DNA from: Schizochytrium sp. TIO01
Taxonomy: Eukaryota; Sar; Bigyra; Thraustochytrida; Thraustochytriidae
Length of the DNA: 64,000 nt
NCBI GenBank assembly: GCA_004764695.1
Contig: SMSO01000036.1
Span: 2,330,001-2,394,000, forward strand
Reading direction: 5' to 3'
Position numbers and translations under genes: made by a program. The notes below the pieces were generated by a model. It made no database searches, had not been told where the DNA came from, and saw only the letters and a list, made by a program, of their open reading frames with translations. This document shows, one piece after another, positions 11,084 through 26,001 of the stretch (position 1 is the first letter of the stretch; each line of letters starts with the position of its first letter).

Positions 11084-14000
11084 ATGAAGACGGCCAAGAC
11101 TTGGGGCATAGCTCCATGGGCCACAACCGGGCTGCTAGCAGCACTTGCAGCTGGGCCTGTGCTGGAACTCTACGAAAGAAGCTCTGTATACCACGGATCA
11201 ATCGGAGTCCCTAGTTTAGACTCTGGCTGGATGTCATTTCCTGGCTCACCGAAGTCGCGAGATTCTGCAGATGTGCAGTACGTTTGGTGGCGTCAAAATG
11301 CGCACTTGACCATTTTGACGATTATGATCATGATTCTCTTCGCAAGAGGCATCGATTTTCTCATGGTCAGATCTGGAATCGTGAATGTTTTGTGGGCTCA
11401 GCGTATACATTTAGGAGTTGATTTGATCCTATCCTCATTATTTCTTTGGAAAATATATGGATTCTACTGGTGGGTCGTTGCGGCGCATGCTCTTAGCTGC
11501 TATGTTATTGTTGTGGTGGGACGCCGCTTCACGTCACGCCCAGCTAGGCTACTTTTCTTGGCGCTTCTCTGGGCAGTGAATGTCGGCTTTATTCTCAACT
11601 CAAGAAACGCTCAAAATCTGATTTCAGATTTCCTTGAACCATATGAGAAAATCGTGCGTGGCCATATTATTACTCGCCTGCTCTATCGCGTGATGTTGAA
11701 TCCGGGGCAGATGCAGTGGCATTCCAATATTCGCTTCGGCCTATTTAGAACTATCGACTTTGGCACGAGTGAACTTTTGCGAGACCCGGAACCACCTGCC
11801 TCTAACGGAAGATCAGAATCAGCCAGGAAGCGGGCAATTCCTGAATGGCTGTCTTTCTTACGCTATGCTACATATGCTCCTCTTGTATGGCAAGGACCGC
11901 TAATAGGATTTCGCACATTTAATATTCAATCACAACGACGCTATCGTGAAGTTGACGGTCGCCTGAGCGTGCTCCCCATACCATGGAGAAAAGTAGGCAA
12001 ACTCACAATCAAATTGGTCATTTCAATTTTTCTTCGGGAGCTATTGGATCATCACTTCTTTGCTAGCATGTTCTTAAAACGAGAGATCCACTTCCAGTTT
12101 CGGTCTGGAGAAATGATTGTCACTGCGTTTATCTATCTTACAAGTTCGTATACCCGAATGCTCATCACCTGGCGCGTCTTTCAGCTCTGGGCTCTCCTGG
12201 ACAACGTGGAGGTAATAGATAATTTCCCGCATTGCCTTTTTCGTAATACATCTGTGGGGGATATGTGGCGCAACACGAATGCTTCAGTCCATGTATGGAT
12301 TCTTGGTAATGTGTATGGGCCAATATGTGAAGTATTTAAGTTTCATCATCGATGGGGCGTTGTGGCCACTTTTGTGTTCATGGCTGTTTGGCATGGCCTT
12401 GATACCTCCTGGATTTATTTTGCAACATTGAATTGTGTAATCATTCTTCTTGAGCAAGCTTGCTCCGAGAGTGATCTTATTCAATCAATTATGCGCCGCT
12501 TCAATAGAGCTACACAACTTCTCATTACAAGCTTCTCCTGGACCCTCCGTGTCTTGCTATTGTGGTTCACATGGATGAATTTCAAGTCTATCCGTGATGA
12601 TCAAATATCATTTCTGCGCCCGCGCCAAATATTTGGTCGTGCATTTTTGGATGATACAGTGGAAAGTGAGATTGCCGAAAAGTTTAACATTGACAACCAT
12701 ATACGACTCTTGGACAGGGCTTTATTTGGAGGTCTTGTGCCTTACCCCACACAGGTACTAGTTGGCACAATCCTATGTTTCATGAGTATTCGTATTCTTG
12801 TTTATTTTTATGATGAATATCCCACTGCAAATCATTCCTCCGCAAACCTTAGAGAGAAAATCCATCAAAACTCTGACGATGAAATCGCTCACCATGCAGC
12901 AACAAGTTTTGACAACAGAATGCACAAAAGATTTCGCGAAATTGCTTCTCAAAATTCACAATCTCTCCGTATGCATGCTCAAACAATTTGTCAAGTTCTT
13001 ACGTGGCGGGCGGAGGATCACCCAGATGAGCCAGCAGCAGTTTGGCTGAAGGACGAAAAGGGTAAAAACACTCTTTCTTTTACTTTTGGAGATCTCTATC
13101 ATCATAGCGTTAATTTGGCTTGGGATCTCATCCATAAGTATGATGTTTTGCCTGGCGATCGTGTTGTACTTGTTTTTTCACCAGGTCTTGAATTTATGGT
13201 CGGTCTATTTGCCTGCATGTATGCTGGGGCAATTGCAGTCCCTGTATACCCTCCGAACCCGCAAGACACTTCTCGAGATTTGGTCTTTCAAGGAATTTTG
13301 AAAGACTGCGAACCAAAGATTATTCTGTCTGATAATAGTTATATGTTTGTCCGTCGCTTAGGCCAAGCTGTGAATGTTGCCAAGAAGATGTTGGCAGCAT
13401 TGCGGGTTCTTTTTGGCGTAGCAGTGCCCATGACAGTTGCTATGCTTTTACAGAGCATTAAGCTATCTATGAAACAAGTCTACCCACGCCGATATATATA
13501 TATCCCAGATGCTGAGTGGCGCGAGCCGGAGGAACCCAGTTTGCCTTCTCACCCGCTGGAATATGCTCTCGTTGTGGGTGCACTCGTGACTAGTATTTGG
13601 TGTGTCGATTTTCGAGATGTTATGGGCGACAAACGTGAACCAAAGGTCCCCATGTCATACGCAAGGATTCCATGGGTACAAGTACAGCCATTTTCCTTCT
13701 GGCACAAAATTAAAAATCATTTCAGCCATAGTAGAGGCAGTCAAGCAATGAAACGGGAACCCCCCGAGTGTACACCTGCTGATGACCCAAGTGCTGTAGC
13801 ATATCTACAGTATACCTCTGGCTCTACAGGTACACCAAAAGGTGTTTGTATTACTCACGAAAACATTATGGACCAAGGGCACTCCAACCAAGTTGCTTTT
13901 GGCTGCCTTGGCCGGGGAGAAACTGCAGTAAATTGGTGTCCTCAGTATCACGATCTCGGTCTTGTGGTTTGCACACTTAGTGGGTTGTATGCAGGAATTC

Positions 14001-15547
14001 GACTTGTAAGCTTCTCTCCATTGGTATTTCTCCGCAACCCACTTCTTTGGGTGCAGACTGTAAGCAAGTACTCTGCGAACTTTTCAGCAGCCCCAAATTT
14101 TGCATATGCCTATACAGCTCGCAAAGCTCGAGCTGCATTAGCTGCAGGCGAATCTCTCGAGGGCCTAAATTTATCATCTTGGCGGGTTGCCGGAAATGGG
14201 GGTGAGCCCGTTCGCGCTAAAGCTCTTGAAGAATTCGCTTCAGTATTTTCTCGCTTTGGTTTTGCCTCTGAGGCTGCATTTCCTTGCTTTGGGCTTGCTG
14301 AGCATACCATTATGGTGTCTGGGCGAAGAGATTTCCGCAAACCAACATATCTGAGCGTGAGCAATCATGCCCTTAGTATGCATCGTGTTGAAATCATTAG
14401 TGAAAGACAAGATGCCAACATGGATAGTGATGATTCATTGACTCTTGTCGGGTGTGGCGAGCCATACGAAAATGTTCAAGTGCTTATTGTTGACCCGAAG
14501 ACACAACTTATGTTGTCAGATCCAACGCGAGAGGTTGGTGAGATATGGCTTGCAAGTCCAAGCGTAGCAGCTGGGTATTGGGGTATGGCCGAGCACGAAA
14601 ATGCGAAAGTATTCGAGGCTCGCCCACATAACTACACATTTAATGCTTCGTTTCTTCGCACGGGTGATCTTGGATTTTTATGGAACGGCGAGCTCTATAT
14701 TTGCGGCCGTTGTAAAGATCTCATCATTATAGATGGTCGCAATATCTATCCTCAAGATATTGAGGCAACAGCTGAACAAGCTGTCTCTCTGCTTCGTCCA
14801 GGCTCTTCAGCTGCTTTCACACAAGACCAACGAGGCCTTTGCTTAGTCGTTGAGCTGCGGCGTGAGTCAAGTGAGGTTGGCATTCCAAAAATTAAGAAAA
14901 TATGCTCTATTGTTCATCAACATGTCCTCAAAGAGCAGCGTGTAAGTGTTTCTGAACTGATTGTCGTCAAATCAGGTACACTTCCGAAGACTTCAAGTGG
15001 GAAGATCCGGCGTCGTGCAGTGGCTGACATGGTGAACCAGCAAGACCCAAAGCTTTTTGGCTCTGTGAAATATCGCGGTTGCGCCAAGGACTTCATCGAC
15101 TCCGAGGGAGACAGCTCTGAAGCAGGTATGTATATAGTTGATGATTTGCTAGATGATCCCACTTACACGGCTATCGTTGAATGTATCTTATCATCAGCGC
15201 CAGAAGACGCACATTTTGTCGCCTCAAGGAGGCTGCAAAAAGAAGATGACGAGGATGAATGGTATGCAGCAGAGAAGGAACGCAGAATGAAAAAAATGAT
15301 TACTATCAAAGAAATTGAAGCAGCCTATAAGGAGTCAATTCTCCATAAAACGCTTGATGAGATTCTTAGTCCTTCCAGTGGTAAGAATTCATCTTCATTC
15401 TCATCGCTTGAAGCGGTTCAATTCGCAGCTACTTTGCAGAAAAAGTTAGAGCTCCGTGGCATTGATGTCAAGCTACCACCGGACGTCGCATTCTGTCATC
15501 CCAGTGTTGGGGCGCTAGCATTATATATTTACGACGCAGATGCTTAA
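11084..15547 (+). CDS. MBOAT acyltransferase - fatty-acyl-AMP ligase - acyl carrier protein fusion
   Basis: This 1487-residue protein has three modules. Residues 1-590 are a multi-pass MBOAT of the HHAT/GUP1 type: YAPLVWQGPLIGF, a WR-N motif near 410, and AVWHG with candidate catalytic His437. Residues 630-1330 are an adenylating enzyme closest to fatty-acyl-AMP ligases: YTSGSTGTPKG from Tyr910, WCPQYHDLGL, SAAPNFAYAY, FGLAEH, TGDLG from Thr1193, and the A10 lysine 1307 in TSSGK. Residues 1405-1487 form a carrier domain with candidate phosphopantetheine Ser1441 in FSSLEAV. By analogy with DltA, DltC and DltB, the ligase would load an acyl group onto the carrier and the MBOAT would transfer it across or at a membrane. 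I placed the start at the ATG at 11084, because TAG at 11021 closes the frame and the codon at 11024 is GTG. A hidden upstream exon is possible. The substrate is unknown. Confidence 0.92.
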   Translation: MKTAKTWGIAPWATTGLLAALAAGPVLELYERSSVYHGSIGVPSLDSGWMSFPGSPKSRDSADVQYVWWRQNAHLTILTIMIMILFARGIDFLMVRSGIVNVLWAQRIHLGVDLILSSLFLWKIYGFYWWVVAAHALSCYVIVVVGRRFTSRPARLLFLALLWAVNVGFILNSRNAQNLISDFLEPYEKIVRGHIITRLLYRVMLNPGQMQWHSNIRFGLFRTIDFGTSELLRDPEPPASNGRSESARKRAIPEWLSFLRYATYAPLVWQGPLIGFRTFNIQSQRRYREVDGRLSVLPIPWRKVGKLTIKLVISIFLRELLDHHFFASMFLKREIHFQFRSGEMIVTAFIYLTSSYTRMLITWRVFQLWALLDNVEVIDNFPHCLFRNTSVGDMWRNTNASVHVWILGNVYGPICEVFKFHHRWGVVATFVFMAVWHGLDTSWIYFATLNCVIILLEQACSESDLIQSIMRRFNRATQLLITSFSWTLRVLLLWFTWMNFKSIRDDQISFLRPRQIFGRAFLDDTVESEIAEKFNIDNHIRLLDRALFGGLVPYPTQVLVGTILCFMSIRILVYFYDEYPTANHSSANLREKIHQNSDDEIAHHAATSFDNRMHKRFREIASQNSQSLRMHAQTICQVLTWRAEDHPDEPAAVWLKDEKGKNTLSFTFGDLYHHSVNLAWDLIHKYDVLPGDRVVLVFSPGLEFMVGLFACMYAGAIAVPVYPPNPQDTSRDLVFQGILKDCEPKIILSDNSYMFVRRLGQAVNVAKKMLAALRVLFGVAVPMTVAMLLQSIKLSMKQVYPRRYIYIPDAEWREPEEPSLPSHPLEYALVVGALVTSIWCVDFRDVMGDKREPKVPMSYARIPWVQVQPFSFWHKIKNHFSHSRGSQAMKREPPECTPADDPSAVAYLQYTSGSTGTPKGVCITHENIMDQGHSNQVAFGCLGRGETAVNWCPQYHDLGLVVCTLSGLYAGIRLVSFSPLVFLRNPLLWVQTVSKYSANFSAAPNFAYAYTARKARAALAAGESLEGLNLSSWRVAGNGGEPVRAKALEEFASVFSRFGFASEAAFPCFGLAEHTIMVSGRRDFRKPTYLSVSNHALSMHRVEIISERQDANMDSDDSLTLVGCGEPYENVQVLIVDPKTQLMLSDPTREVGEIWLASPSVAAGYWGMAEHENAKVFEARPHNYTFNASFLRTGDLGFLWNGELYICGRCKDLIIIDGRNIYPQDIEATAEQAVSLLRPGSSAAFTQDQRGLCLVVELRRESSEVGIPKIKKICSIVHQHVLKEQRVSVSELIVVKSGTLPKTSSGKIRRRAVADMVNQQDPKLFGSVKYRGCAKDFIDSEGDSSEAGMYIVDDLLDDPTYTAIVECILSSAPEDAHFVASRRLQKEDDEDEWYAAEKERRMKKMITIKEIEAAYKESILHKTLDEILSPSSGKNSSSFSSLEAVQFAATLQKKLELRGIDVKLPPDVAFCHPSVGALALYIYDADA

Positions 15548-23954: not shown

Positions 23955-24555
23955 GAGAACATTATTGCGCCTACTAGGAATATGTAAAAAGTTTGTCTAG
24001 AACTTTTAAAGAATCGGCCATCCTATTTACAATAGCTAGTATTTCTTTGGCACGGAGAACATTAGGCAGTGCCATGAAATAAAACTTAAATAATATACAT
24101 ATATTGGGCGAATTCAGGTAGCTCAGGAACTATAGTATGCAATCTCCTCCTTTGGACTTTATCAATTTACCAGCACGTATTGCGCCAACATGATCAACGC
24201 GTCTCATGAAAAGACACAACTTATTTAAAAGCTCAAAATCACTCTCCTTTTTTACATGCTTGAGAAATTGACAAGATTTTGATTATAAACGAATTCGTTT
24301 GCGTCATCGTGATTCTTTCAAATTGTGCATCTTATTCGTTCAAGGCAAATGCGTGCGTCATGTGCTCGTGTCAACAGCACTAATTCATGTGATGAAAATG
24401 CGGGCCAGAATTATCTGTTCAGAATTATTTATTTTCACAAAACTAACTTGAATTCAATTGTTGCTCGGTTTAAAAAGATTCCAATTTGCTAATTTATCTC
24501 TCTATTGAAGAGAGGCTTTTGACACATATGTGAGGCCTCTACGATTATGTCCTAG
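23955..24555. mobile_element. Repeat copy 1 with Helitron-like 3' end
   Basis: This 601-bp AT-rich copy is repeated immediately downstream (24566-25250). Homology starts around GAGAACATT and ends exactly at CTAG (24552-24555). A stem with arms AGAGGC and GCCTCT (24511-24540), holding an inner CACATATGTG palindrome, ends 11 bases before CTAG. A hairpin about 10-12 bases before a terminal CTRR is the hallmark of a Helitron 3' end. There is no coding capacity, so it would be non-autonomous. The base after CTAG is C and not the expected T, which weakens the call. Confidence 0.45.
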
Positions 24556-24565
24556 CACAAACGCG

Positions 24566-25250
24566 GAGAACATTATTGCGCATACTAGGAATATGTAAAA
24601 AGTTTATTGACAACTTAGAGAATCCGCGATCCTATTTACAATAGCTAGTGTTTCTTTGGCACGGGCGGAGAACATTGTTGCTCTTACTAGGAATATGTAA
24701 AAAGTTTATTAGAGAATCTGCCATCCCATTTGCAATAGATGGTTCTTTGGCACGGAGAACATTAAGCATGCCATGAAATGAAACTTAAATAATATACATA
24801 TATTGGTAGAATTCAGGTATCTCAGGTAATATAGTTTGAAATCTCCTCCTTTGGACTTTATCAATTTACCAGCGCGTCAACATGATCAACACGTCTCATG
24901 AAAAGACACAACTTATTTAAAAGCTCAAAATCACTCTCCTTTTTTACATGCTTGAGAAATTGACAAGATTTTGATTATTATAAACAAATACGTTTGCGCC
25001 ATCGTGATGCTTTCAAATTGTGCATCTTATTCGTTCAAGGCAAATGCGTGCGTCATGTTCTCGTGTTAACAGCACTAATTCATGTGATGAAAATGCGGGA
25101 CAGAATTATCTGTTCAGAATTATTTATTTTCACAAAACTAACTTGAATTTAATTGTTGCTCTGTTCAAAAAGATTCCAATTTGCTAATTTATCTCTCTAT
25201 TGAAGGGAGGCTTTTGACACATATGTGAGGCCTCTGCGATAATGTCCTAG
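24566..25250. mobile_element. Repeat copy 2 with Helitron-like 3' end and an internal 102-bp duplication
   Basis: This is a second direct copy of the 23955-24555 unit, differing by scattered substitutions and small indels. The first 102 bases are duplicated (GAGAACATT at 24566, again at 24668, and once more at 24755; copy 1 has it at 23955 and 24055). The 3' hairpin (GGAGGC/GCCTCT, one wobble) again ends 11 bases before CTAG at 25247-25250, after which the two copies share nothing. Head-to-tail tandem copies are known for Helitrons. It has no open frame of note. Confidence 0.45.
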
Positions 25251-25613
25251 AAATTTCCTCGCTTTTATCTTCTTCGCAGTCAGGGGTACCGTTTTGTCTT
25301 GGACGCTGAAAATTTACACTTTACACTTTTCAATGAACTGAATGGTAATTTTATAATTTAATCTTTACTTCAAAGATTTCCATAAAAACAATATCTAGAT
25401 CTCTTTTGCAACGCGCTTCTTCTCAAAGTAAGGCGCTTTGGCGGGTTGATATCAATAATCACAGTTGGCCGCGCCGCCGAGCCACTAGATGATTCGAGTA
25501 GCCACTTTGATTAACAACTCAGCCAAGGACATATCTTCCTCTGTGCAGGTGCGGGTTGTTCGTTGTGAACGCGCTGCCTCAAAGAGACAATACTGACACC
25601 GAACTCAAGTCTC

Positions 25614-25866
25614 TTGTTTGTTTGTTTGTTTGTTTGTTTGTTTGTTTGTTTGTTTGTTTGTTTGTTTGTTTGTTTGTTTGTTTGTTTGTTTGTTTGTTTG
25701 TTTGTTTGTTTGTTTGTTTGTTTGTTTGTTTGTTTGTTTGTTTGTTTGTTTGTTTGTTTGTTTGTTTGTTTGTTTGTTTGTTTGTTTGTTTGTTTGTTTG
25801 TTTGTTTGTTTGTTTGTTTGTTTGTTTGTTTGTTTGTTTGTTTGTTTGTTTGTTTGTTTGTTTGTT

Positions 25867-25926
<60 letters not shown>

Positions 25927-26001
25927 TTTCTTTTTCTTTTTCTTTTTCTTTTTCTTTTTCTTTTTTCTTTTTCTTTTTCTTTTTCTTTTTCTTTTTCTTT
26001 T
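25614..26001. repeat. Compound microsatellite: 62 TTTG, 15 TTTC, then TTTTTC units
   Basis: TTTG repeats run without interruption from 25617 to 25864 (62 units), then 15 TTTC units to 25924, then about a dozen T5C units to 26001 with one six-T unit. All frames are open, giving spurious peptides of Phe-Val-Cys-Leu. The lack of any substitution points to recent or ongoing expansion. The reported length may be limited by read assembly. Confidence 0.98.

Follow-up and report, generated by a model that had tools for sequence, protein, structure and literature searches.

A one-chain MBOAT, fatty-acyl-AMP ligase and carrier protein in a thraustochytrid, a possible carrier-dependent membrane acyltransferase

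Could a eukaryotic membrane acyltransferase be served by a carrier within its own chain instead of by coenzyme A (CoA)? The question is raised by a gene in a 64,000-nucleotide stretch of the genome of the thraustochytrid Schizochytrium sp. TIO01 (assembly GCA_004764695.1, contig SMSO01000036.1, positions 2,330,001 to 2,394,000), which is called the window here. It was confirmed that an MBOAT acyltransferase module, a fatty-acyl-AMP ligase (FAAL) and a C-terminal phosphopantetheine carrier are encoded in one frame of this gene. Judging from the residues that the modules retain, the product may be a single-chain, carrier-dependent membrane acyltransferase, in which the FAAL would activate an acyl group and load it on its own carrier and the MBOAT would transfer it to a membrane acceptor; we give this reading about even chances. 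The features referred to below are as follows (positions in the window, all on the + strand).

11084..15547, +: whole gene, MBOAT - FAAL - carrier, 1487 amino acids (aa) without internal stop
11084..12814, +: MBOAT module, residues 1-577 (hydrophobicity scan; Pfam PF03062 match)
12278..12280, +: Asn399 in WRNTN (alignment with the GUP1-like protein of the same genome and with HHAT)
12392..12394, +: His437 in AVWHG, candidate catalytic His (alignment with the GUP1-like protein and HHAT)
13001..14581, +: AMP-binding domain of the FAAL, residues 640-1166 (Pfam, NCBIfam FAAL models, structure 3kxw)
13367..13687, +: extra insertion, residues about 762-868, with two hydrophobic segments, 770-788 and 825-843 (alignment, hydrophobicity)
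13811..13843, +: motif A3, YTSGSTGTPKG, residues 910-920 (sequence)
14303..14455, +: FAAL-specific insertion region, residues 1074-1124 (alignment)
14717..15031, +: C-terminal ligase subdomain, residues 1212-1316, with Lys1307 at 15002-15004 (Pfam PF23024, alignment)
15032..15301, +: linker rich in acidic residues, 1317-1406 (sequence; frame +1 best of six)
15302..15532, +: carrier domain, residues about 1407-1483, with Ser1441 (15404-15406) at the phosphopantetheine site (Pfam, carrier profile, PDB matches)

The frame runs from the first ATG at 11084 to a stop ending at 15547 and comprises 1487 codons with no internal stop; given how often stops occur in the window, a run this long without one would arise by chance with a probability of about 4e-28. 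When codon usage was scored in blocks of 80 codons, with 12 open reading frames (ORFs) for training and the last 47 codons left unscored, frame +1 ranked first of all six in each of the 18 blocks, which cover residues 1-1440 and include both module joints. Pfam scans of the whole protein gave MBOAT (PF03062) 63.3 bits against a cut-off of 27 at residues 244-492 (11813-12559), AMP-binding 188.8 bits against 29.9 at residues 640-1166, and AMP-dom_DIP2-like (PF23024) 33.5 bits against 27 at residues 1212-1316. PP-binding (PF00550), at residues 1439-1482, reached 19.2 bits, just below its cut-off of 20.8, and 21.5 bits, just above it, when the last 148 residues were scanned alone. In its own assembly (64.06 Mb, 37 contigs) the gene itself was the sole full-length match, and a search for the MBOAT family found at least two genes, namely this one and a GUP1-like gene. 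An earlier note on this DNA, based on the letters alone, had described a single uninterrupted frame fusing an MBOAT, a ligase and a carrier. This description was borne out by the length, the Pfam domains and the codon scores, and its domain identities hold, with PP-binding at the cut-off. The residues it named were also correct: His437 in AVWHG (434-438), Lys1307 in LPKTSSGKI (1300-1308) and Ser1441 in FSSLEAV (1439-1445).

The top NCBIfam matches to the ligase were FAAL or FAAL-containing models, all far under their full-length cut-offs, and no DltA model was among the best 25 of the 99 matches. The closest solved structure was 3kxw, which we take to be a Legionella FAAL. For residue comparisons a set of 53 bacterial FAALs, the four other FAALs of the same genome and four non-FAAL ligases as controls was used. 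The bacterial sequences derive from a DNA-pattern scan of genome contigs with a FAAL alignment, in which at least 518 of at least 591 stretches were confirmed; the best 80 of these served as FAAL loci (81 together with locus L021, with flanks of up to 8 kb, many contigs being shorter), and 55 of the 80 were taken into the comparison, two being dropped with one internal stop each. At the positions of W951 and F1006, W and F occur in all 57 other FAALs, whereas the four controls have H and S. The third pocket residue, L958, is Met in 50/57 FAALs and Leu in 3/57. The three residues are spaced by 7 and 48, exactly as W224, M231 and F279 of EcFAAL, which are its CoA-blocking residues (PMC8460268; the papers cited by PMC number were available in part, and statements resting on them are limited to those parts). 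The FAAL-specific insertion region has 51 residues, against 36-48 in the 53 bacterial FAALs, 43-46 in the four of the same genome and 23 in all four controls. Lys1307 is matched by Lys in 56/57 FAALs, with a gap in the remaining one, and Asp1195 by Asp in 57/57. The module is thus supported as a FAAL with a predicted CoA-blocked pocket, and the bypass of CoA that had been proposed for it is likewise supported, at the level of sequence, by the FAAL-specific residues. In a quick tree of 62 rows, the fused FAAL fell into an unresolved fork with the FAALs of the same genome and seven bacterial rows (support 92).

The previous description of the ligase was incomplete in missing an extra insertion. 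A stretch of 151 residues separates the first part of the ligase from motif A3, compared with 45-51 in all four other FAALs of the genome and 37-92 in the 53 bacterial ones, an excess of about 106 residues. Frame +1 is the best of six over this insertion, and, with stops as frequent as they are in the window, a run as long as it would stay free of them by chance in about 1% of cases. The insertion was considered as a membrane hairpin, and this candidate was downgraded, since equally hydrophobic stretches occur in the ligase core.

In the MBOAT module, a simple scan (mean of at least 1.3 over 19 residues) found hydrophobic segments in residues 9-174 and 426-577. The hallmark of the family, a conserved His with an Asn, Asp or His partner, is present as His437 and Asn399; a conserved His and Asn are typical of MBOATs (PMC10213974). 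Both residues align with two His of the GUP1-like protein of the same genome (25% identity), the position of Asn399 being occupied by the His of WRAWH in that protein and, in an alignment read by eye, by the Asp of WRYFD in HHAT. The GUP1-like protein matched the module directly with 57.8 bits (28% identity over 85 residues). When a two-sequence profile of the module and the GUP1-like protein was compared with solved structures, HHAT was the best match (E 3e-16), followed by DGAT1 (1e-4).

For the carrier, a profile of 18 FAAL-linked carriers gave the segment 23.8 bits, whereas the top of 500 shuffles was 6.9. Ser1441 aligns with the phosphopantetheine Ser of other carriers. The Asp before the active Ser is replaced by Ser, as it is in the carriers of loci L010, L014, L015, L043 and L061. 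Three phosphopantetheinyl transferase (PPTase) matches above cut-off were found in the genome, and these enzymes could convert the carrier to its holo form.

As far as can be judged from alignment, each of the three modules retains its key residues, and activation by the FAAL, loading of its own carrier and transfer by the MBOAT form the most economical reading. The FAAL would form acyl-AMP from ATP and a free fatty acid, rejecting CoA, and would then load the acyl group onto the 4'-phosphopantetheine at Ser1441 of the C-terminal carrier. The carrier would swing to the MBOAT, where Asn399 and His437 would hand over the acyl group; the acceptor would be a hydroxyl or amine on a lipid, a protein or a glycan, located at an internal membrane or across it. 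We infer all three steps, their order, the membrane, the direction across it, and the acceptor. The single steps have parallels in the literature: FAALs hand acyl-AMP to holo-acyl carrier protein (holo-ACP) (PMC8460268), and DltB takes its acyl group from DltC, so that an MBOAT can use a carrier thioester (PMC12148441). The reading is also favoured by Aas, in which an acyltransferase is fused to a ligase and works through acyl-ACP (PMC11416262), by the four other FAAL-carrier proteins of the genome, and by the planctomycete locus L085, where a FAAL gene is followed at once by a distant MBOAT-like gene. A PfaA-type polyunsaturated fatty acid (PUFA) synthase match above cut-off was found in the genome (among 14 control genomes, 11 had matches and none above cut-off). 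Since PUFA synthases release free fatty acids (PMC9702510), a free fatty acid substrate is plausible, and that the substrates of the fusion come from this synthase is our guess. In a bolder form, the protein would be the first eukaryotic MBOAT fed by a carrier protein instead of CoA, combining a Dlt-like logic in one chain with a FAAL and possibly delivering free fatty acids, perhaps polyunsaturated ones, directly to a membrane acceptor in a protist that makes docosahexaenoic acid; this we put forward tentatively and lean somewhat against.

Several observations weigh against the carrier-dependent reading. Codon scores of frame +1 were low, from -0.09 to 0.18 per codon with 2/18 blocks below zero, compared with 0.06 to 0.38 in the training ORFs. 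The MBOAT fold has about ten membrane helices, and residues 175-425, where helices are expected, contained no segment above the threshold of the simple scan. The module is divergent: by itself it matched no solved structure up to E 1, and a profile of 18 bacterial MBOAT sequences detected the GUP1-like protein and missed the fused module. Because the GUP1-like protein alone also retrieves the HHAT structure (E 2.4e-12) and the fused module alone finds nothing, the assignment to an HHAT/GUP1 type stands in part: kinship is supported by the two-sequence profile, but indirectly. The carrier is the weakest of the three modules. Of the usual GxDS core it has neither the Gly nor the Asp (the five carriers that share its Ser for Asp keep the Gly), its PP-binding score sits at the threshold, and its PDB matches, which cover the whole carrier domain (residues 1407-1483), are weak, namely two polyketide synthase (PKS) carriers at E 0.15 and 0.18. 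The hydrophobic segments of the insertion (2.03 and 1.61) do not exceed stretches of the ligase core (2.0, 1.84 and 1.64), and because the core is equally hydrophobic, membrane contact of the insertion is possible but weakly supported. Around the 81 bacterial FAAL loci, a single-sequence MBOAT search found no match and the 18-sequence profile found one, at locus L085 (31.1 bits, bias term 16.1), whose MBOAT-like protein has no detectable similarity to the fused MBOAT (1.0 bit).

Three other explanations were weighed. The modules could be tethered but work separately, the MBOAT using acyl-CoA while the FAAL and carrier serve another partner, such as a PKS, and the fusion merely places the unit at a membrane. 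Lipid-making eukaryotic MBOATs do use acyl-CoA (PMC10213974), FAAL-ACP didomains supply PKS and non-ribosomal peptide synthetase (NRPS) lines (PMC11837247), and a 5651-codon frame with several PUFA-synthase model matches indicates that large PKS-like genes exist in the genome. However, a direct hand-over is the simplest explanation of a ligase, a carrier and a transferase in one chain, and a scan of the ten other window proteins covered turned up neither a PKS nor an NRPS family (two of them without any family, and smaller ORFs outside the scan); such a division of labour is considered unlikely. We regard it as rather improbable that the C-terminal domain is a degenerate carrier without phosphopantetheine, with a ligase that is DIP2-like or passes acyl-AMP directly to the acceptor. 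The threshold PP-binding score and SSFSSL in place of the GxDS or GxSS core of other carriers would fit such a domain, as would the example of DIP2, whose eukaryotic FAAL-like domains are joined to a DMAP1-binding domain, no carrier being mentioned in the available part of the source (PMC8460268). It is opposed by the retention of Ser1441, by a segment score far exceeding the 500 shuffles, by the same Ser for Asp in the five carriers that keep the Gly, and by the PPTase matches in the genome.

An error of the gene model or assembly, or an unnoticed in-frame intron whose splicing would cut out part of the ligase, is very improbable. Of 179 stop-free stretches treated as non-coding (these overlap and perhaps include unmasked exons), 29 had a coding score at least as high as that of the insertion, and composition alone therefore does not exclude an in-frame intron at that place. 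However, frame +1 was the best of six in all 18 blocks across the module joints and over the insertion, and a single full-length locus lies in an assembly of 37 contigs.

Searches for relatives returned mostly negatives. DNA-pattern scans confirmed none of one stretch for the whole fusion protein among viral contigs, none of 68 for the MBOAT alignment among genome contigs and none of 50 for the FAAL alignment among viral contigs; these negatives are weak because the scans relied on two to six short patterns each. Among the 386 genomes in the phylum to which the Nostoc record L022 belongs, 171 gave an MBOAT match, and among the matches listed the frames had 264-569 codons, too short for the fusion. 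No bacterial FAAL-MBOAT fusion was found among the FAAL loci (best 80 and L021) or among the MBOAT matches listed in that phylum. The planctomycete locus with the single profile match is arranged as follows.

L085:3246-7671: FAAL gene immediately followed by a distant MBOAT-like gene, the end of which is GDSL/SGNH-like (below the Pfam cut-off)

Because the MBOAT-like protein has no detectable similarity to the fused module, this pairing is best seen as an analogy and not as kinship. Relatives of the MBOAT-like gene, counting any match at 1e-8, occurred in 16 of 294 Planctomycetota genomes. Among ten strong places (at least 187 bits), an AMP ligase lay directly adjacent on the same strand in four; at a fifth, L140, a ligase piece lay on the other strand at the edge of the stretch. 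These ligases were sought by the FAAL profile only. The three scanned in NCBIfam matched amino-acid adenylation best, with DltA models among the next. Pfam called neither the MBOAT of L085 nor any of the four MBOAT-like proteins scanned.

The four further FAAL genes of the genome all encode a FAAL followed by a carrier, one as a didomain and three with a long C-terminal part.

L010:185-5515 and L015:2056-7395 (own contig C33): FAAL-carrier proteins with Pls/PosA-like ends, in tandem
L014:2417-6631 (own contig C3): FAAL-carrier protein with a Pls/PosA-like end
L012:3278-5710: FAAL-carrier didomain, 810 aa; its carrier site is a classical GMDSV

The C-terminal parts of L010, L014 and L015 gave hexapeptide matches below cut-off, and the end of L010, the only one tested, scored 128.1 of the 423.1 bits of the Pls/PosA terminal domain TIGR02353, below its cut-off. 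These three proteins share with the fusion a FAAL, a carrier and a long hydrophobic-looking part, but that part is C-terminal and not an MBOAT; in our reading it is probably membrane-spanning. The PfaA-type match is split over two frames of 1031 and 2172 codons (own contig C4:608161-617209). One PPTase match lies within a 4151-codon frame (own contig C13:5144034-5144342), a setting that would fit a giant fatty acid synthase in one chain. Within the window, a neighbour of the fusion gene encodes an Sm-fold (LSM) protein, which we take to be SmD1 and hence a mark of a eukaryotic source, and positions 24001-26000 show a marked dip in G+C (0.344) and a strong AT skew (-0.255).

The HHAT/GUP1 branch of MBOATs acylates signalling proteins and glycosylphosphatidylinositol anchors. 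If the proposed mechanism is true, carrier-fed transfer would be shown for an MBOAT near this branch, and in a thraustochytrid it would bear on the entry of free fatty acids into lipids. The purpose of CoA avoidance by eukaryotic FAAL-like domains is still open (PMC8460268), and a FAAL-carrier-MBOAT chain would give FAAL chemistry a concrete, testable outlet.

Several known systems resemble the fusion in part. HHAT and GUP1 are the nearest MBOATs found, the GUP1-like protein directly and HHAT through the profile that included it. HHAT uses palmitoyl-CoA, and the GUP1-like protein of the same genome differs from the fusion in having neither ligase nor carrier. In FAAL-ACP didomain and FAAL-NRPS/PKS proteins the FAAL is followed by a carrier in one chain, as here, and the diagnostic W and F are found in the 53 bacterial FAALs; however, these proteins supply PKS/NRPS lines (PMC11837247) and have no membrane transferase. 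DIP2 of animals and fungi shares the eukaryotic FAAL-like domains, and the fusion matches Pfam AMP-dom_DIP2-like, but DIP2 consists of a DMAP1-binding domain and two FAAL-like domains (PMC8460268), whereas the fusion has one ligase only and no DMAP1-binding Pfam match.

The Dlt system of Gram-positive bacteria has the same three activities in the same order, i.e., adenylation, carrier loading and MBOAT transfer (PMC12148441 for DltC to DltB). However, DltA, DltC and DltB are separate proteins, the substrate is D-alanine, and DltX and DltD are added. In the fusion, by contrast, the ligase is a FAAL and not of DltA type among those best 25 NCBIfam matches, and the MBOAT is nearest to HHAT/GUP1. 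The transferase of Escherichia coli Aas is of PlsC type; the fusion has an MBOAT in its place and gave no PlsC-type Pfam match up to E 1. Aas makes acyl-ACP and passes the acyl group to lysolipids, and it resembles the fusion in that an acyltransferase precedes an AMP ligase within a single chain and an acyl-ACP thioester delivers to a membrane acceptor; it differs in that the transferase domain is peripheral, without membrane helices, and the ACP is a separate protein (PMC11416262). The earlier note, which knew of no described eukaryotic enzyme with this architecture, is upheld within the open-licence full-text literature, where titles and abstract starts yielded no description of a eukaryotic FAAL-carrier-MBOAT fusion (closed papers and sequence databases lie outside that scope). 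Its precedents were incomplete, as Aas was overlooked (PMC11416262): because Aas joins an acyltransferase to an acyl-ACP-forming ligase, a fused version of the logic already exists, though with a transferase of a different kind. By this comparison the logic is already known from Dlt and Aas, and what appears to be new, as far as the literature was searched, is that a eukaryote has it fused with an MBOAT.

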